A DNA stretch of 64,000 nucleotides from NCBI GenBank assembly GCA_020073085.1, contig JAIQFV010000023.1, forward strand, positions 1-64,000. The letters are read 5' to 3'. Source of the DNA: Terriglobia bacterium. Lineage in GTDB: Bacteria; Acidobacteriota; Terriglobia; JAIQFV01. Shown here piece after piece: positions 7,335 to 52,764 of the stretch; position 1 is the first letter of the stretch, and the number at the start of each line of letters is the position of its first letter. Made by a program: the position numbers and the translations under genes. The notes under the pieces were generated by a model that searched no databases, was not told where the DNA came from, and saw only the letters and a program-made list of their open reading frames with translations.

Positions 7335-8081
7335 TCACTCCTCCCAGCGGTATTTTCCGCTCAGATGGTTCCAGCGGATCCTCACCAAATCGAAAAACAT
7401 GGAGATGGCATCCGACAGAAAATGCACCTTGGATCCTTGCACGTGATTCCAGCGGACCGGAATTTCACCCGCCCGAAGGCCCCGGAGCCTGGCCAGGTAG
7501 AGCATCTCGGGATCAAATCCAAAACCAAAAATCCTCTGGCGTTCAAACACGGGGATCATGAGATGACGCCGAAAGGCCTTGAAACCGCACTGGGTATCGC
7601 TATACGGCAGATGCAGGATGGTCCGGACGAATGCATTAAACACCTTTCCCGATTGCTCGCGCAACCAGGATTGGCGAACCCCGATCAAGCTCCGGTCGAG
7701 CGCCCGTGAGCCAATGGCCAGATCGAGGAGTCCCTGGCGAATGGGATCCAGAATCTTCTTCGATTCTTCAATCGGCGACGACAGGTCGGCATCGCTGAAC
7801 AGCACGATTTCTCCCCTGGCCTCTAACACGCCATGCCGAACGCTGAATCCCTTGCCCCGGTTGCGATCGTTGCGCACCAGCCGCACCCGTGGATCCTTCG
7901 CGGCCGTTTCTTTGATCACGTCAACCGTCTGGTCGCTCGAGCCGTCATCCACCACGACGATTTCGACGGAGGATTGTTCGTTGTTGAAGTAAGCCCCGAT
8001 ACGTTCCAGCGAAAGGGAGATCCTTTGGGCTTCATTGTAAGCCGGGATGACAACCGAGATTTCCACAGCGCCTGGGGACAT
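7335..8081 (-). CDS. GT2 glycosyltransferase, dolichyl-phosphate glucosyltransferase-like
   Basis: A GT-A fold transferase of about 248 residues. ISVVIPAYNEAQRI, the VVVDDGSSD nucleotide-sugar site and the FSDADLSSP metal-binding motif follow in the standard order. The QCGFKAF segment and the FGFDPEML motif are typical of the polyprenyl/dolichyl-phosphate-sugar synthase branch (Alg5-like). It probably charges a polyprenyl phosphate with a hexose for envelope glycan assembly. There is no C-terminal membrane domain. I placed the start at 8081; an ATG at 8126 would add 15 residues and overlap the upstream gene by 32 bases. It lies between the secreted hydrolase and pdxJ in one transcription unit. 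Confidence 0.85.
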   Translation of the reverse strand: MSPGAVEISVVIPAYNEAQRISLSLERIGAYFNNEQSSVEIVVVDDGSSDQTVDVIKETAAKDPRVRLVRNDRNRGKGFSVRHGVLEARGEIVLFSDADLSSPIEESKKILDPIRQGLLDLAIGSRALDRSLIGVRQSWLREQSGKVFNAFVRTILHLPYSDTQCGFKAFRRHLMIPVFERQRIFGFGFDPEMLYLARLRGLRAGEIPVRWNHVQGSKVHFLSDAISMFFDLVRIRWNHLSGKYRWEE

Positions 8082-8094
8082 GGGTTTAGGAAGG

Positions 8095-8922
8095 CTATTG
8101 GGTCGGGAGCGCAGGTTTCCCGGCATTCACCCACGCGGTATACCAGTAGGATCCGACATTCTGAATGGCTTCAGAAATCTCGCGCGAGATGATGGAACCG
8201 ATGTCGTTGTACAATTTCTCATAATACTCGTCGTTGAATCCGCCCGCAGCGGTGAACGCACGCCGGTCGGCCAAGAGGTAATTATCCACCCAAACGTAGT
8301 TCTGAAGGGCGAGCTGAAACGCATTTTCGGTGGGGTCTTTGAGATATCCGACCTGTCCCGGCCGCAGCAGCAGAAAGTTCGCATAGCGGTCGAACAAACC
8401 CATTCCAATCCGGTCGTCAATCCCATTCTGTCCAGAAAGCTGGCCGTTGAAGTTCTCGGTCAAATGAAACGGGTCGGTGGTATCGGCGACGTAATGGGCC
8501 AACCAGGCCGAGGCTTCACGCACGGCGTCCCAGTTATGCGACCGGAAGGCCTGGGTCAGACGCAGATGGTACTCCCCGATGTACCACGGCAGGATCCCGT
8601 TCTTGTTGAGCTTGAAGCCGCCGTAAGTTTGCAGGGCAAGGTTGTAATTGTGAGGTAGAAGGGGGAAAGGATACTTGCCGTACCGATCGAAATAGATGAA
8701 ATGCCGGACCGCTTCTGCCCGGTTCGTCTGCGACACCTTCTTGGCGTCAAAGGAATGCTCTCCGAGGTAGGTCCGGTTTGCGGTGTAGAAAGCCTTGATT
8801 TCGGCGGGGAGTTCGTCGACCGCCTTCTCAGAAATGATGCGGTGTGCCCGGGGACCCCACGCGAAAAGAGTCGACGCTGCGGCGAAAACCAGCACTCCAA
8901 GCAATAGTGGCGTTTTTTTCAT
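8095..8922 (-). CDS. Secreted zinc-dependent phospholipase C / S1-P1 nuclease family protein
   Basis: The ATG at 8922 gives a classical signal peptide ending TLFA, followed by WGPRAHR. In this superfamily the mature protein starts with Trp, whose amino group and carbonyl bind zinc, so the cleavage site fits the chemistry. The HYVADTTDPFH motif supplies the His-Asp-His zinc ligands, and FIYFD corresponds to an earlier ligand region. The product is expected in the periplasm or outside the cell, hydrolysing phospholipids or nucleic acid; sequence alone does not separate the two. An in-frame ATG at 8961 lies 13 codons upstream but would bury the signal peptide. The following glycosyltransferase starts close to or within its 3' end. 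Confidence 0.75.
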   Translation of the reverse strand: MKKTPLLLGVLVFAAASTLFAWGPRAHRIISEKAVDELPAEIKAFYTANRTYLGEHSFDAKKVSQTNRAEAVRHFIYFDRYGKYPFPLLPHNYNLALQTYGGFKLNKNGILPWYIGEYHLRLTQAFRSHNWDAVREASAWLAHYVADTTDPFHLTENFNGQLSGQNGIDDRIGMGLFDRYANFLLLRPGQVGYLKDPTENAFQLALQNYVWVDNYLLADRRAFTAAGGFNDEYYEKLYNDIGSIISREISEAIQNVGSYWYTAWVNAGKPALPTQ

Positions 8923-42554: not shown

Positions 42555-43250
42555 GTTTCGTTAAGGGCCCCGGGTTCCCTCTCCCCCTTCCAACACTGAA
42601 CATAAATTCCGAACTCAGTGACGAGTGATCTTCTCTTCAAAAGCATACAGAATGGATCAGTTGATTCATTTTGAGATGGGACAATGTCTCCAGGAGAACC
42701 AGGAACGCGTACTGACCGACCTCAGTAGGGACTCGAGAGTTCCACCATCCGGACGGGATGCCCCTTCCCCTGGATGGGAGACTTTAACTGGACTTCGAGA
42801 TCTTCATTCTTTTGTCATGCGCTTGTAACATCACTCCTCCATACTGATCCTCCACCTGAAATTGAACTGCGCATGAGGTCGACCCGGAGTCATCCCGCGG
42901 GTTCAAGCGGCTCCTGATTTAATAAACCATAGGAGGATTCCCAATATTTGTATAAAGTGGATAAGCTTAGTCTGGATTCGCCTGTGATGTTTGCAAAGTC
43001 CTGAATTATCAATAACTTTTTTACCTGAAAACCTTGTGACTTTGGCTGAGTACTTGCATGAAATTCCAGTAGATGTCGCAGCTTACGTTTAAGATTTTTC
43101 ATACCCGGAACTCATCTGACCAAGCCGACCATTATGATTGATGGTTTAGAGAGGGGATTCTCTTCTGCCCTGGGCTCAGGAAGTGGTCGTCGGTTTTATG
43201 ATCTGCCAAAACCAACCAATCCGCCAATTCCAACAAAAAGGAGTTGCTCA
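42555..43250. other. Non-coding region upstream of receptor copy 4
   Basis: About 700 bases. A minus-strand open frame at 42890-43102 would encode 70 residues with several Lys and Leu but lacks a Shine-Dalgarno and any family match; I do not call it. There is no repeat, RNA or clear promoter that I can support. The ribosome site of copy 4 (AAAAAGGAG) closes the region. Confidence 0.35.
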
Positions 43251-46200
43251 ATGAAAAAAAGCACCATGCTTCGTGTTATGTTTTTTATGCTGTGCAGTAT
43301 CGTGGCAGCTTGCCTCTGGGCGCAAGGCCAGGGTACGGGATCGATTGAAGGAACCGTAACCGACTCGTCCGGTGCTGTGATTCCGGGCGTCAAGATTGTG
43401 ATTCAAAACCTGGGAACCAATGCGACGCGGGAGATGACGACCGACGCCTCGGGTCATTATCGCGCGGATATTCTTACTTCCGGCGAGTACTCCATCACCG
43501 CGAGCCAATCCGGCTTTGCGACCGCGAAGCTTGAGAAGGTGACGGTGTTCGTTGGAACCTTAACCTCTGGCGATTTGAAAATGGGGGTCGCCGGGACCCA
43601 GCAAACGGTCGAGGTCACAGCGGAAGCTCCGCTGACTGACGCCGAAAAAATCGCCGTCGGGGGCTCCGTGGGCGAACGCGCCATTGAGGACCTTCCGGTG
43701 AATGGCCGCCGATGGTCTAATTTCGTCCTTTTAACACCCGGCACGATTCCGGATGGGACCTTCGGCTTGGTCAGCTATCGCGGGATATCGGGACTTTATA
43801 ACAACAACTCCATTGATGGGGCGGACGACAACCAGGCCTTTTTCTCGGAAGCCAATGGCCGCACCCGAACGCCCTATGCCATCAGTCAGGCTACCATCAA
43901 GGAATTTCAGGTGGGGTTGAGCAATTATTCGGCAGAATTTGGCCGTGCCGCGGGCGGGACAGTCAATGCCGTCACAAAATCCGGCACCAACCAGTTCCAC
44001 GGAGAAGGCTTCTACTTCTTGCGAACGAAGGCCTTCATTGCCATGGACCCTTTCATCAAGGCCCAAGGCAAACCCCAACCCGATGAAAGACGCCAGCAGT
44101 TCGGAGGCGCCGTGGGCGGTCCCCTCGTCAAGGACAAGCTTTTCGTCTTCGGAAACTATGACGAGCAACTCCGCAACTTCCCTATCACGACGCTCCCGAA
44201 TGTTCCTCTGGCATCACAGGCCTGCACCGTGCCCGGGTGCGCCGCAACACTGGCATTCCTCAATAGCCAGGTCGGCACCTTCCCGCGCCAGGGGAATAAC
44301 TATATTTTTCTAGTCAAAATGGACTGGATCATCAACCAGAACAACACCCTGACGGGCGAGTACAATTATCACAAGTGGCACTCCCCCAACGGCATTCAGA
44401 CAGCCGCGACGGTCACCGTCTCACCCTCCGCGAATGGCAGCGATGATGTGCGGACCGATCTCCTGACCACCCGGCTGACTTCGGTGTTGTCCGGCAGCAA
44501 GGTCAACGAATTCAGGTTCCAGTTTGGCCGTGATTTTGAATTCGAGTTTCCCAATGCGCCGGGACCCAGTGTTTCCTTTACCAACGGCATTAGTTTTGGT
44601 CAGCCCAATTTCCTGCCTCGGGCGGCTTTCCCGGATGAAAAGAAATTCCAGTTTGCCGACAACTACTCTTTTGTCCATGGAAACCATTCCTTCAAGGCGG
44701 GCATGGACATCGTGCATTACAACGAATTGCTCATCAACCTGTTCAGCGGGGGTGGCGTCTACACCTATGGAAACGCATTTTCATTCAACGGGGGAAGCAG
44801 TCAATTGAATGCCCTGGCAGCAGACTGCCCGCCTCAGGCCACCGGTTGTGTACCTCTCGCCTCAGGGGCGACCACTGGAAAGCATTACTCTTCGTTCGTT
44901 CAAGCGTTTGACCTGACGGGCCAAGCGGGCCGGTCCAGTTTTGCCACAACCAACTGGAACTTCTATTTCCAGGACAATTGGCGAGTCCGCCCGAGTCTCA
45001 CGCTGTACCTCGGAATTCGATATGAATTTCAGCATCTGCCCCAGCCAGGAGCCGCCAACCCAGCAGTTCCGCTAACAGGCCAAATCAACCAGGACACGAA
45101 CAATTGGTCCCCCCGGATTGGCTTCTCTTGGGATGTGTTTGGAAACCACAAGACAGTTCTTCGCGGCGGGTATGGCATCTATTACGGTGTGACCTCAAGC
45201 AGCTATGTGTCAAGTTCCATAACCGGAAATGGAATGATTCAGACCAGCCTCTCTTTGAACCCGACCCGGGCGACCGATTTACCGCTCGCTCCCGTTTTCC
45301 CGAACATCCTGACGACCGCGGGAGGAGTTCCTGGCGCCATCACGCTCTTTGATCCGAATTTTGTGGAACCTGTGATCCACTCCGCTGATCTGGCTATCGA
45401 GCGTGAGTTGGGGAACGGCTTGACGATTTCCGGATCGTACCTGTTCAGTCGCGGGCTCCACCTTTTTGCGACCTCAGACCTTAACCTTCCCCCCCAGACG
45501 GGAACCGTAACCTACATTCTTCCCAATGGGACCCCCGCGGGAGCGTTTCCGTTCTATAGTGGGGCACGACCCAATACGGCAGTCGGGGCTGTGATTGCGG
45601 CCCAGAGTGTCGCCAATTCGACCTACCACGGATTCGTCTTCTCCTTGAACAAGCGGTTTAGCCATGGGGTCCAGGTCCAATCCAATTTCACACTCTCCAA
45701 GGCCATCGACACAGGGCAAACCTCATCAACCTTCATTCCCACGTTTCCCTCGGCCTTCGACCAGAACAATCGGAGTTTGGAGAAGGGCCTTTCGCAATTT
45801 GACGCCCGTAAGCGGTGGGTAACGAACTTCCTCTTGTCACCCTCCGTGAGTCGATATACGGACAATGCCTTTGCGCATGCATTGTTCAACGATTGGCAGT
45901 TCAGCGGGGTCTTGACTCTTTCAGATGGCAAGGCGTTCACTCCGAATTTCAGTGGCGGAAGCGTCGGCCTGGGTGCGACGAACGGAAGCAACGGAAGCTT
46001 CAGGGTGCCCTTTTTGGCGCCTGGATCCTTCACGACGCCGGGTTTCGCTGCGCTGGATATGCGGTTCACTCGTAATTTCAGGGTCGGTGAGAAGGCCCAC
46101 TTCCAGTTCATTTGGGAAGGGTTCAACCTTTTCAACCGGGTGAACTACACCGGCTTCCTGGGCAACCTGTTTAATGCAAGCACGAAGGTTACAGGGGGCA

Positions 46201-46319
46201 ATGCGGTCGTCACCTTGAGCAACCCCAGTGCCTCGTCTACTTTCCTGGCTCCGACCGCGGACACCAGCTTCTTCAACGGACCGCGTGAATTCCAGCTGGG
46301 GTTGAAGTTCATCTGGTAG
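43251..46319 (+). CDS. Oar-like TonB-dependent receptor (copy 4)
   Basis: 1022 residues from the ATG at 43251, with AAAAAGGAG 9 bases upstream; the frame is open back to 43134 but the signal peptide starts here and ends ACLWAQG. Layout as in copy 3: regulatory-like domain (GTGSIEGTVTDSSGAVIPG), plug with DLPVNGRRWSNFVLLTPG, barrel ending GPREFQLGLKFIW. The stop codon TAG is part of a REP-like palindrome at 46316-46341. It is the last of the four receptors and is followed on the same strand by the two VWFA-related genes. Confidence 0.93.
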   Translation: MKKSTMLRVMFFMLCSIVAACLWAQGQGTGSIEGTVTDSSGAVIPGVKIVIQNLGTNATREMTTDASGHYRADILTSGEYSITASQSGFATAKLEKVTVFVGTLTSGDLKMGVAGTQQTVEVTAEAPLTDAEKIAVGGSVGERAIEDLPVNGRRWSNFVLLTPGTIPDGTFGLVSYRGISGLYNNNSIDGADDNQAFFSEANGRTRTPYAISQATIKEFQVGLSNYSAEFGRAAGGTVNAVTKSGTNQFHGEGFYFLRTKAFIAMDPFIKAQGKPQPDERRQQFGGAVGGPLVKDKLFVFGNYDEQLRNFPITTLPNVPLASQACTVPGCAATLAFLNSQVGTFPRQGNNYIFLVKMDWIINQNNTLTGEYNYHKWHSPNGIQTAATVTVSPSANGSDDVRTDLLTTRLTSVLSGSKVNEFRFQFGRDFEFEFPNAPGPSVSFTNGISFGQPNFLPRAAFPDEKKFQFADNYSFVHGNHSFKAGMDIVHYNELLINLFSGGGVYTYGNAFSFNGGSSQLNALAADCPPQATGCVPLASGATTGKHYSSFVQAFDLTGQAGRSSFATTNWNFYFQDNWRVRPSLTLYLGIRYEFQHLPQPGAANPAVPLTGQINQDTNNWSPRIGFSWDVFGNHKTVLRGGYGIYYGVTSSSYVSSSITGNGMIQTSLSLNPTRATDLPLAPVFPNILTTAGGVPGAITLFDPNFVEPVIHSADLAIERELGNGLTISGSYLFSRGLHLFATSDLNLPPQTGTVTYILPNGTPAGAFPFYSGARPNTAVGAVIAAQSVANSTYHGFVFSLNKRFSHGVQVQSNFTLSKAIDTGQTSSTFIPTFPSAFDQNNRSLEKGLSQFDARKRWVTNFLLSPSVSRYTDNAFAHALFNDWQFSGVLTLSDGKAFTPNFSGGSVGLGATNGSNGSFRVPFLAPGSFTTPGFAALDMRFTRNFRVGEKAHFQFIWEGFNLFNRVNYTGFLGNLFNASTKVTGGNAVVTLSNPSASSTFLAPTADTSFFNGPREFQLGLKFIW

Positions 46320-46341
46320 TAACGAATTCATTCGTTACTAC
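46316..46341. repeat. REP-like palindrome containing the receptor stop codon
   Basis: Arms GTAGTAACGAA and TTCGTTACTAC form a perfect 11-bp inverted repeat around a 4-base centre. The TAG of copy 4 lies in the left arm. The same core recurs eight times in the tandem array at 50.8-51.7 kb, so it belongs to a dispersed palindromic family. Confidence 0.7.
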
Positions 46342-48266: not shown

Positions 48267-48322
48267 ACCCGGTGGGTTGCCAGAATGTTCCGGACGGCTC
48301 GCCGACAAAGGGAGAGAAATTC

Positions 48323-50743
48323 ATGAGAATCAAGAATTGGCTCATTTGGTCGGCCCTGTGCCTTTTCGTCATGGGGGGATTCATTGGTGCGGGCGCGGCC
48401 CTCAAGGCCTCAGCGCCCCAGGCCCCTTCCCCGCAGACCGCCCCTGCGGCCCCCTCGGCTCCAGCTCCGCAGACAAACAATCAGCCCTCCCTTTCCAATC
48501 AGAATGTGATTCGCATTGAAGTTCCCGTCGTTACGGTCGACGTGGTGGTCACCGACAAGAAAGGAAAGCCGGTGAAAGGACTGGCCAAGGGGGATTTCAA
48601 GCTCCTCGAAGACGGCGTGGCGCAAAATCTCACCAACTTCGAATATCTCAGTGAAGAGGAACCCACTGGAGAACTGGCTTCCATCACCACGGATCGCCCC
48701 CTCGGCGGCGAACGGCAAAACTATATCCTGTTCCTGTTTGACAACACGTCGATGGATCCCAGCAGCCAGGAGCGTTCTCGCCATGCTGCCGCGAAGTTCA
48801 TCGACGAAAATCTACGCACCGGGGACCTGGTCGCCATTGCCAACTATCGAAATTCCATGCAGATTGTTCAGAATTTCTCCGGCAATAAAACGCGTCTCGC
48901 CCGGGCATTGGGCGTCCTCGTGACTGGGGAGTCCATTGATAAAACGGATACCGGCGCCAATGCCCCGTCCAACACGCCCTTTGATCGCGCGCAGCAGAGC
49001 CTCCGATCCCTGGGCGCTCAGTTCGACGCGCGCAATCTCATGATTGCGATGCGGGGATTGTTCAATTCAATGCGTCCCATCAAAGGCCGGAAATCCTTGA
49101 TTGTGTTTTCGGGAGGGATTTCCCTCTCCGCGGACAATCATGTGGACCTGATCGCGGCCATTGATGCTGCCAACAAGGCCAACGTGACGGTGTACACCAT
49201 CGATGCGAAGGGCTTGAGTGTGGACATGCCCACCCCCAACACCCCGAACCCGCGCCGTATGAGTTCCAATTCCTCAACCTCCACGCCGGCTCTCGGTTCT
49301 TTCGTGAATTCCTTCCAGGGATCCCCTCGAGGCGGTGGAGGAGCCCCCGGGGGGGGCAGCGGCCGGCCGGGCGGTGGAGCGCCCGGAGGAGCACCCGGCG
49401 GAGGAGCCCCAGGAGGTAATCCGGGCGGCTTTCCAGGCGGCAATCCCGGCGGGTTCCCGGGAAGCAACACGGGCAACCCCAGGGGGAATACCGGCAACTT
49501 CCCGGGCAATGACCCCATGGACCCCAATAGCAATAACCCGTTCGGAAATCGAAATCCGCTGGACCGAAGACTCGACCAGATGACTTTGAGCGACCTCAAG
49601 GATGTGTTGCTCAGCATGGCCACAGAAACCGGTGGGTTTTACATCCGGAATTCAAACGATTTTAATCGCGGCCTTCAGGAAATCAAATCCGAGATGAGAA
49701 ACTTCTATTCACTCGGATATGAATCGAATAACCAGGTGCACGACGGGAAATTCCGAGCGATCAAAGTGGAAATGGTGAAGAAGGGCTTCAACATCAAGTA
49801 CCGAAAAGGTTATTTTGACAAGAAATCCCAGGACGCGCTGGCCGGAACACCGGCAGAAAAGCCTTTGAATAAGGCCATCGAGGAAAGCAGCCCCTTGACC
49901 GCCCTTCCGGTGCAACTCGTCTCCGACTACTTCTATGAGGGTCCCAGCCAGGCTCGCGCCCCGGTGAGCGTGCGTCTCCCCATTTCCAAGTTGAGGATGA
50001 AAAAAGACAAGGGTCTGCGCAGTGATGCGATCGACATTCTGGGGGTGGCGCTTCGCGAAGACGGGACGAAGGCGGCCCGGTTCAGCGACACCATGAATCT
50101 GAGGATGGAGAACGATCAATGGAAGAAACTGCCCGAAAATGCGACCGTCACATTCCCCAATTACTTTCGCCTGCCCCCCGGTAAGTACCGGCTGAAGGTG
50201 GCTGTACATGATGAGGGGGACCTGGTGGGCACGGTCGAACAGCCTGTCGAAATCCCGCCTTACGCCGGCGGTCAGTTTACTACGAGCAGCCTCGTCCTAA
50301 GCAGCGAGGTCCGGCCGCTTTCCGGGTTGATCAGCAGCCTCGAATCGGAACTGCTCGACGATAAGAACCCCCTCATATCCAATGGAATGAAGGTGTACCA
50401 ATCCGTCGACAAGAGGTTCTATGCGGGCACGGCGGTGTGCATCTATTTCAGTCTTTACAATCTGACAGTCGATCCGAATCAGAAGAAACCGTCCTTGCTG
50501 TTGAGTTATTCGCTGATCTCCAACGACAAGCTGGTCTTTCAGATGCCTCTGTCCAGCATCACTCAGCTTCCCGCCATCGAAAACGGCGTGCTTCCGGTGG
50601 GGATGTGGGTACCTCTCAAGGACTTGACTCCCGGGCACTACACCATCCAGGTCATGGTCCGTGACGGGCTGACCAATGTCACGCATTACTTGCGCGACCA
50701 ATTTGATGTCGAGGCCGCCCAAGAGAGTGTGGCCAAGAAATAG
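48323..50743 (+). CDS. VWFA-related secreted protein 2 with Gly/Pro-rich insert
   Basis: 806 residues from ATG 48323, with AAAGGGAGAG about 9 bases upstream. Signal peptide or anchor at about 5-30, a Pro/Ala-rich linker, the entry block IEVPVVTVDVVVTDKKGKPV and DFKLLEDGVAQNLTNFEYL, then a VWA domain with the metal site FDNTSMDPSS. A low-complexity insert at about 330-415 (repeats of GGAPGG, GGNPGGFPG and GNTGNFPG) splits the VWA domain before its last segment (MTLSDLKDVLLSMATETGGF). A beta-rich C-terminal half follows. It is a paralogue of the preceding protein. Its last 19 codons and terminator are repeated in the array downstream. Confidence 0.88.
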   Translation: MRIKNWLIWSALCLFVMGGFIGAGAALKASAPQAPSPQTAPAAPSAPAPQTNNQPSLSNQNVIRIEVPVVTVDVVVTDKKGKPVKGLAKGDFKLLEDGVAQNLTNFEYLSEEEPTGELASITTDRPLGGERQNYILFLFDNTSMDPSSQERSRHAAAKFIDENLRTGDLVAIANYRNSMQIVQNFSGNKTRLARALGVLVTGESIDKTDTGANAPSNTPFDRAQQSLRSLGAQFDARNLMIAMRGLFNSMRPIKGRKSLIVFSGGISLSADNHVDLIAAIDAANKANVTVYTIDAKGLSVDMPTPNTPNPRRMSSNSSTSTPALGSFVNSFQGSPRGGGGAPGGGSGRPGGGAPGGAPGGGAPGGNPGGFPGGNPGGFPGSNTGNPRGNTGNFPGNDPMDPNSNNPFGNRNPLDRRLDQMTLSDLKDVLLSMATETGGFYIRNSNDFNRGLQEIKSEMRNFYSLGYESNNQVHDGKFRAIKVEMVKKGFNIKYRKGYFDKKSQDALAGTPAEKPLNKAIEESSPLTALPVQLVSDYFYEGPSQARAPVSVRLPISKLRMKKDKGLRSDAIDILGVALREDGTKAARFSDTMNLRMENDQWKKLPENATVTFPNYFRLPPGKYRLKVAVHDEGDLVGTVEQPVEIPPYAGGQFTTSSLVLSSEVRPLSGLISSLESELLDDKNPLISNGMKVYQSVDKRFYAGTAVCIYFSLYNLTVDPNQKKPSLLLSYSLISNDKLVFQMPLSSITQLPAIENGVLPVGMWVPLKDLTPGHYTIQVMVRDGLTNVTHYLRDQFDVEAAQESVAKK

Positions 50744-50767
50744 CTGGGGTCCACGTACTGAAGTCGA

Positions 50768-50805
50768 AACGCCTTCCGCAGAGCGCATGCGGGAGGCGTT
50801 TTTTT
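50768..50805 (+). terminator. Terminator of VWFA-related protein 2
   Basis: Stem of AACGCCT and AGGCGTT, extended by CCGCA/TGCGG, with a 7-9 base loop and a run of seven T. Three further copies lie at one-unit spacing in the array, so transcription leaving the gene meets four terminators in series. Confidence 0.8.
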
Positions 50806-50833
50806 GTGCCTGAGAGGAACCTGCCTGCTCAGC

Positions 50834-50931
50834 GTAGGAACGAATTCATTCGTTGCTCAAATTCGTCAATTGCCACCCCCTGAACGTCCCTCAGGAGCTG
50901 CGCTCGTAGGAACGAATGAATTCGTTACTAC
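50834..50931. repeat. REP-like palindrome pair in array unit 1
   Basis: Two REP-like sites (50834-50858 and 50906-50931) with the AACGAATTCATTCGTT core and its reverse complement face each other over about 47 bases, so they can pair into one long stem. Equivalent pairs are 51095-51119/51167-51192, 51354-51378/51426-51451 and 51613-51637/51685-51710. Confidence 0.7.
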
Positions 50932-51720
50932 AATTTGAAGTTCATTACTTGCGCGACCAATTGGATGTAGAGGCCGCTCAAGAGAGTGTGGCCAAGAAAT
51001 AGCTGGGGTCTACGTACTGAAGTCGAAACGCCTTCCGCAGAGCGCATGCGGGAGGCGTTTTTTTTTGCGCCTGAGAGGAACCTGCCTGCTCAGCGTAGGA
51101 ACGAATTCATTCGTTGCTCCAACTCGTCAATTGCCACCCCCTGAACGTCCCTCAGGAGCTACGCTCGTAGGAACGAATGAATTCGTTACTACAATTTGAG
51201 GTTCATTACTTGCGCGACCAATTGGATGTCGAGGCCGCCCAAGAGAGTGTGGCCAAGAAATGGCTGGGGTCCACGTCCTGAAGTTGAAACGCCTTCCGCA
51301 GAGCGCATGCGGGAGGCGTTTTTTTGCGCCTGAGAGGAACCTGCCTGCTCAGCGTAGTAACGAATTCATTCGTTGCTCCAACTCGTCAATTGCCCCCCCC
51401 TGAACGTCCCTCAGGAGCTACGCTCGTAGGAACGAATGAATTCGTTACTACAATTTGAGGTTTATTACTTGCGCGACCAATTGGATGTAGAGGCCGCTCA
51501 AGAGAGTGTGGCCGAGAAATAGCGGGGGTCCACGTACTGAAGTCGAAACGCCTTCCGCAGAGCGCATGCGGGAGGCGTTGTTTTGTGCCTGAGAGGAACC
51601 TGCCTGCTCAGCGTAGTAACGAATTCATTCGTTGCTCCAACTCGTCAATTGCCACCCCCTGAACGTCCCTCAGGTGCTACGCTCGTAGGAACGAATGAAT
51701 TCGTTACTACAATTTGAGGT

Positions 51721-52764
51721 TTATTCCTTTTCCGGGCGCTCTTTCATCTGCTCCGACAGGGCGTCGAGCCGCCGCGCCAACTCTCGAACGCTTTTCTGAA
51801 GCTCCGGCAATTTTGCGAAAACGGCGGTCGCCTTGAGCCATTGATAATTCTCTATGGCAGGAGACCCTGAAATCACCTGCCCGGCGGGCACATCGCGCGG
51901 AATCCCGGACTGGGCCGTGACCACGACGCCATCCCCGATGGTGAGGTGTCCCGCCACGCCCACTTGACCTGTTAACACAACGTCCTTCCCCACCACGGTG
52001 CTGCCCGCCAATCCCACCTGCGCGCAAAGCAGCGAATTCTCCCCCACCGTGGAGGCATGTCCCACCTGCACCAGGTTGTCGATCTTTGCGCCTTTCTTGA
52101 CCCGGGTCTCTCCGATCGTTCCGCGATCAATCGTCGAATTGGCGCCGATTTCGACATCATCTTCAAGGATTACAATTCCCGACTGCACCATCTTGTAATA
52201 GCTTCCATCCGATTGCTTGGCAAACCCGAAGCCGTCCCCTCCCACGACGACACCATTCTGAAGGATGACGTTGTTCCCCAGAAGACAGTATTCGCGGACC
52301 ACCACATTCGCATGCGCGAAGAAATGATCGCCAATCCGCACTCCTCGGTAAATCGTAGCCGGCCCCACCAGGACGGCATCATTGCCGATCACTACATCTT
52401 CGTGTATCACCACATAGGGACCCACATGGGCGCGTGCTCCGATGCGGGACGTCGGGTCGATGCAGGCGGTGGTGTGAATGCCCGGGGAGTATTGCGGAGG
52501 GGAGTAGAATAACTCGATAGCTTTGGCGAAGGTCAGATAGGGATTTTCGCAGCGCAACGTTGCCTGGGGCAAAGGGGCGAAATCCTCCGAGACAATGAGG
52601 GCGGAGGCGCGGGTGGTTTTTGCGGCCGCCACGTACTTGGGATTCGAAATGAAGGTCAAATCTCCTTCGCCGGCGGTTTCAATCCCAAGCACCCGGCGAA
52701 TTTCGATGCCGCTGTCCCCCTCCAGGCGGCAGTTCAACCGTTTTGCAATCTCTCCAAGGCGCAT
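51721..52764 (-). CDS. lpxD: UDP-3-O-acylglucosamine N-acyltransferase LpxD
   Basis: 347 residues. An N-terminal domain (about 1-95, with DLTFISNPKY) is followed by a left-handed beta-helix of hexapeptide repeats (about 105-310). The helix contains the catalytic-His region VQVGHASTVGENSLLCAQVG and the FGFAKQSDGSYYKMVQSG signature, and a C-terminal helix (LQKSVRELARRLDALSEQM) follows. LpxD adds the second acyl chain in lipid A synthesis, which shows that the cell makes lipopolysaccharide. Other lpx genes are not in the window. It is convergent with the VWFA genes and divergent from murJ. Confidence 0.96.
   Translation of the reverse strand: MRLGEIAKRLNCRLEGDSGIEIRRVLGIETAGEGDLTFISNPKYVAAAKTTRASALIVSEDFAPLPQATLRCENPYLTFAKAIELFYSPPQYSPGIHTTACIDPTSRIGARAHVGPYVVIHEDVVIGNDAVLVGPATIYRGVRIGDHFFAHANVVVREYCLLGNNVILQNGVVVGGDGFGFAKQSDGSYYKMVQSGIVILEDDVEIGANSTIDRGTIGETRVKKGAKIDNLVQVGHASTVGENSLLCAQVGLAGSTVVGKDVVLTGQVGVAGHLTIGDGVVVTAQSGIPRDVPAGQVISGSPAIENYQWLKATAVFAKLPELQKSVRELARRLDALSEQMKERPEKE

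Follow-up and report, generated by a model that had tools for sequence, protein, structure and literature searches.

The space between a VWFA-domain gene and lpxD, convergent neighbours in the 64,000-nucleotide stretch of soil acidobacterium DNA analysed here (the window), holds four tandem copies of a segment made up of the end of the VWFA gene, its terminator and a pair of REP-like palindromes. This array is very likely a REP-dimer cluster that grew by tandem duplication, with the gene end and the terminator carried along as passengers; this is a known kind of structure, and the array calls for no new mechanism. The reading is based on the anatomy of the array, the single unit of a genus-mate, the short words in which the two ends of the duplicated segment agree, a second tail duplication in the same genome and further palindrome-bearing arrays. 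It makes the array a young, well-resolved example of REP cluster growth carrying gene ends and terminators along; a sister species shows an ancestor-like single-copy state, and the window genome has a second instance.

Tandem Repeats Finder placed the array at 50684–51729 with a period of 259, 4.0 copies, 95% matches and a score of 1899, which far exceeds all of its other rows in the window. The unit boundaries listed in Table 1 were obtained by aligning the units, which stand head-to-tail, are about 95–97% alike and differ at 7–13 of some 258 positions. Common to every unit are a 19-codon VWFA tail, HYLRDQ(F/L)DVEAAQESVAKK, a stop, a terminator and two opposed palindromes. Both methods bear out the four copies at 50684–51721 that were claimed in the original prediction, and its description of the unit content and the label "REP pair" hold. 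The stop that unit 3 was said to have lost has indeed changed, but another in-frame stop follows shortly; likewise, the last unit does end at the lpxD stop, although the sequence stays imperfectly similar to the unit start as far as 51729, within lpxD. The upstream gene matched TIGR03436, an acidobacterial VWFA domain family, with 227 bits (cut-off 81), and lpxD matched TIGR01853 with 359 bits (cut-off 242.5). Imperfect short repeats were also seen within the VWFA gene (49331–49467), where they encode a Gly/Pro-rich stretch.

Table 1. Features of the array and its surroundings (positions in the window)
Feature	Position	Strand	Remark
Single palindrome, same family	46316–46341		GTAG gives a TAG stop
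VWFA-domain gene (TIGR03436 family)	48272–50743	+	3′ end is the start of unit 1
Unit 1	50684–50942	+	259 bp; true gene tail, terminator, REP pair
Terminator, unit 1	50768–50806	+	13-bp stem and T run; homologous terminator in genus-mate
Left GTAG-tagged palindrome, unit 1	50834–50857	+	Copies at 51095, 51354, 51613
Right palindrome, unit 1	50908–50931	-	Opposite orientation; copies at 51169, 51428, 51687
Unit 2	50943–51203	+	261 bp; terminator T run has two extra T
Terminator copy, unit 2	51027–51064	+	
Unit 3	51204–51462	+	259 bp; TGG in place of TAG; in-frame TGA six codons on
Terminator copy, unit 3	51288–51326	+	
Unit 4	51463–51721	+	259 bp; end is the first base of the lpxD stop complement
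Terminator copy, unit 4	51547–51585	+	T run interrupted by G
End word	51722–51729	+	TATTCCTT, likely original joining word; copies the unit start word (C/T)ATTACTT imperfectly
lpxD	51721–52764	-	Convergent neighbour of the VWFA gene

For comparison with the window genome (G000; 5.79 Mb in 68 contigs), the same place was inspected in relatives. The genus-mate G001 has an orthologous VWFA gene (88% identity), and between this gene and lpxD lies a single unit, consisting of one terminator and one palindrome, GTAGTAACGAATTAATTCGTTACTAC. The right palindrome of the array unit aligns with this single palindrome; the left palindrome is without a counterpart in the genus-mate. The family-mate G002 has the same VWFA–lpxD gene pair, and no palindrome of the array type was found in it. 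AACGAATTNATTCGTT was found in 2 of 101 genomes, G000 and G001, and among 61 genomes the array unit matched the same two only. The single unit of the genus-mate, taken with this restricted distribution, indicates that the array is recent and lineage-specific and that it arose, most likely, in the lineage leading to the window genome. The check for copy-number variation suggested in the original prediction thus gave one unit in the genus-mate against four here. An assembly artefact is very improbable as the source of the extra copies. The copy number does come from one assembly, in 68 contigs, but no exact repeat within the array exceeds 67 bp and each unit has differences found in no other, so that the units could have been told apart with ordinary short reads, and assemblers of short reads are more prone to merge repeats than to create diverged copies.

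The genus-mate also bears on the four terminators in series that had been highlighted between the convergent genes. They are literally present, but are probably a by-product, since one terminator serves the genus-mate. Repeated terminators and REP hairpins could instead have been kept by selection against VWFA readthrough into lpxD antisense, and against lpxD readthrough in the reverse direction, as the convergent genes, the four stem-plus-T-run terminators and the four stable REP-pair hairpins would allow. We consider this unlikely, given that a single terminator and a single palindrome occupy the same place in the genus-mate, that one good terminator should suffice, that the T run of unit 4 has decayed (TTGTTTT) and that the other arrays of the genome sit elsewhere. 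Judged from the sequence, the extra units are unlikely to have a function.

The palindrome fits the published GTAG-REP class in its tag, its head-to-head dimers, its position between convergent genes and its supply of a TAG stop. In the window genome and the genus-mate, almost every copy of the palindrome is preceded by GTAG, and a few by GTCG instead. The stem is 7 bp (AACGAAT/ATTCGTT), compared with about 6–9 bp for GTAG REPs, and the 24-nt palindrome arms lie 50 nt apart with their GTAG ends outward, within the 20–100 bp of opposed dimers; these dimers are reiterated in tandem with flanking DNA, as in BIMEs and tandem REP clusters. The DNA of the REP pair folds with z = −5.0, and the pattern GTAGGAACGAATGAATTCGTT, with at most 3 mismatches, had 18 matches in the window and 0 in 100 shuffles. 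At the single palindrome upstream of the VWFA gene, GTAG provides the TAG stop (46316–46319) of the ORF 43134–46319, in a sequence context kept in the genus-mate (L185:3704). Rfam, searched at lax thresholds, yielded sub-threshold matches only, attributable to the long hairpin; the best, MIR5649, reached 28.6 bits where the gathering score is 100.

High genomic copy number was not found, there being 35 relaxed matches to ACGAATTNATTCGT on both strands of the 5.79 Mb, mostly in a few arrays. The window genome has 19 matches to the Y1 transposase family (Y1_Tnp, PF01797), two of them at contig ends, and the palindrome was not found beside the ten Y1 transposase loci whose flanks were searched (about 1.5 kb, less at contig ends). 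GTAG is the mark of one of two REP super-families (PMC3733652). In the part of that paper drawn on here, GTAG repeats are listed in Proteobacteria, Cyanobacteria, Chloroflexi and the PVC group, and Acidobacteria are mentioned solely for a transposase group. The copies described here point to a GTAG-tagged REP family of small size in one genus of acidobacteria.

For the growth of the array, the starting point would be a GTAG-tagged palindrome pair behind the VWFA terminator, between the convergent genes. One tandem duplicate of tail, terminator and REP pair would then have arisen through slippage or template switching between two short, imperfectly matching words, one 19 codons before the end of the VWFA gene and the other at the 3′ end of lpxD, and the hairpin-forming palindromes probably helped the copying error. 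Homologous unequal exchange between near-identical units could subsequently have raised the number to four, and the extra tails and terminators would be passengers without a needed role. In this account the slippage step, the help from the hairpins, the exchange between units and the absence of function are our inferences. The end words themselves, (C/T)ATTACTT and TATTCCTT, match at 7 of 8 positions, the genus-mate counterpart of the latter being CATTCCTT, and the right end of the duplicated segment lies about 10 bp past a palindrome. As a trace of slippage or template switching the match is suggestive only, being short and noticed after the fact. Two points run counter to the passenger view: it leaves the origin of the left palindrome, with no counterpart in the genus-mate, unaccounted for, and it does not predict the tail pattern of a second duplication, on contig C3 (see below), which differs from simple neutral drift of a dead copy.

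The tail copies of the window vary at five sites, two of them synonymous (GTC/GTA and GCC/GCT), two missense (F/L and K/E) and one the stop loss. The statement that they differ "mostly" at synonymous positions was therefore overstated: the synonymous share of 2/5, against an expected fraction of 0.18, gives P = 0.23, and the earlier inference from these differences, of former functional genes or of gene conversion, finds no support here. The alternation of GTA/GTC and GCT/GCC between odd and even units is nevertheless as described. Variable sites are about equally dense in the tail (5/60) and in the rest of the unit (roughly 7%). At the F/L site the outgroup G001 reads TTT, which places the origin of the L state in the copies. 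Paralogous VWFA genes on contigs C44 and C41 were considered as donors of GTA, GCT and TTG, but their tails gave no match. Alignment sites 28 and 37 group units 1 and 3 against 2 and 4, site 127 groups 1 and 4 against 2 and 3, and site 158 groups 1 and 2 against 3 and 4; these conflicting two-against-two patterns suggest some exchange between units or parallel mutation.

Other tail duplications were sought in about 1.65 Mb of the window genome, the window and contig C31 included, by comparing the last 45 nt of each gene with the next 1.5 kb. One further clear case was found, at C3:185772–186353 (L165:5772–6353; 1.9 copies), whose unit comprises the last 40 codons of a TonB-dependent receptor, the stop and some 185 bp carrying GGGACAGTCCC palindromes. 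The end words of this unit read TTACGGAA and TTTCGGAA. The two C3 copies differ at 17 of 121 tail positions and at 9 of 154 in the adjacent non-coding part. Third codon positions account for 11 of the 17 tail differences (P = 0.008), and a mutation bias affecting GC-rich third positions may explain part of this lean. In the G002 orthologue the K, T and P residues agree with the expressed copy, so these changes lie in the downstream copy. Three tail matches were set aside: one (L124) is a normal tandem duplication of an OmpA-like gene, and in the others (L116 and L067) the ORFs extend across repeat arrays and were not accepted as true gene ends. Tail duplication was not found in smaller samples of G001 (390 kb), G021 and G045 (200 kb each), a weak contrast given the unequal sample sizes.

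Tandem arrays with a period of at least 40 number 24 per Mb in the window genome compared with 5 in G001; G045 has 50 per Mb, none of them mostly outside ORFs. In 15 of the 32 survey arrays with periods of 60–500, the inverted repeat is longer than in all 12 control windows, and the score of the window array is 20, with no control above 10. Contigs C31 and C2 also have arrays of the same palindrome, in units of 63–66 bp. Those on C31 (L067:5167–5991 and 7971–8444) comprise 12.9 and 7.3 units of 63–65 bp, each unit containing two different palindromes, one of which is the GTAG palindrome of the window. A CRISPR-like reading of these 65-bp arrays was rejected, since the whole unit repeats and not a repeat with unique spacers. 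On contig C41 (L073:1428–2660), the orphan C-terminal 211 residues of a VWFA gene lie between two 155-bp REP pairs of another type, 92% identical to each other.

This orphan, the favoured third positions in C3 and the two synonymous alternations in the window could be taken to mean that the tails remain from tandem VWFA genes that were once complete, or from older alleles of the gene, and that the bodies were lost. We regard that as very unlikely: the first codon copied and the junction are the same in all four units, nothing of the other gene parts is seen, the synonymous excess is not significant and the genus-mate has one gene there. It is also very unlikely that palindrome-assisted duplication of 3′ ends recurs in this lineage and that the silent older tails can be converted back, altering the C-terminus of the protein.

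Silent partial-gene cassettes of the pilS type serve antigenic variation by gene conversion. The array resembles them in having partial, unexpressed gene copies beside an expressed one, but its tail copies hardly differ in protein sequence, each is followed by a terminator of its own, and a variable region is absent. In a literature search for this structure, PMC3733652 was the closest match. Compared with the GTAG-tagged REP clusters and BIMEs of that paper, the copies are few, all lie within a single genus of the genomes searched, no transposase gene was found alongside, and the reiterated flank holds a gene end with its terminator. The array is like these clusters in its GTAG tag, its short stem and its head-to-head dimers about 50 bp apart, in its placement downstream of and between convergent genes, in its tandem reiteration together with flanking DNA and, at a neighbouring copy, in the use of GTAG as a TAG stop.
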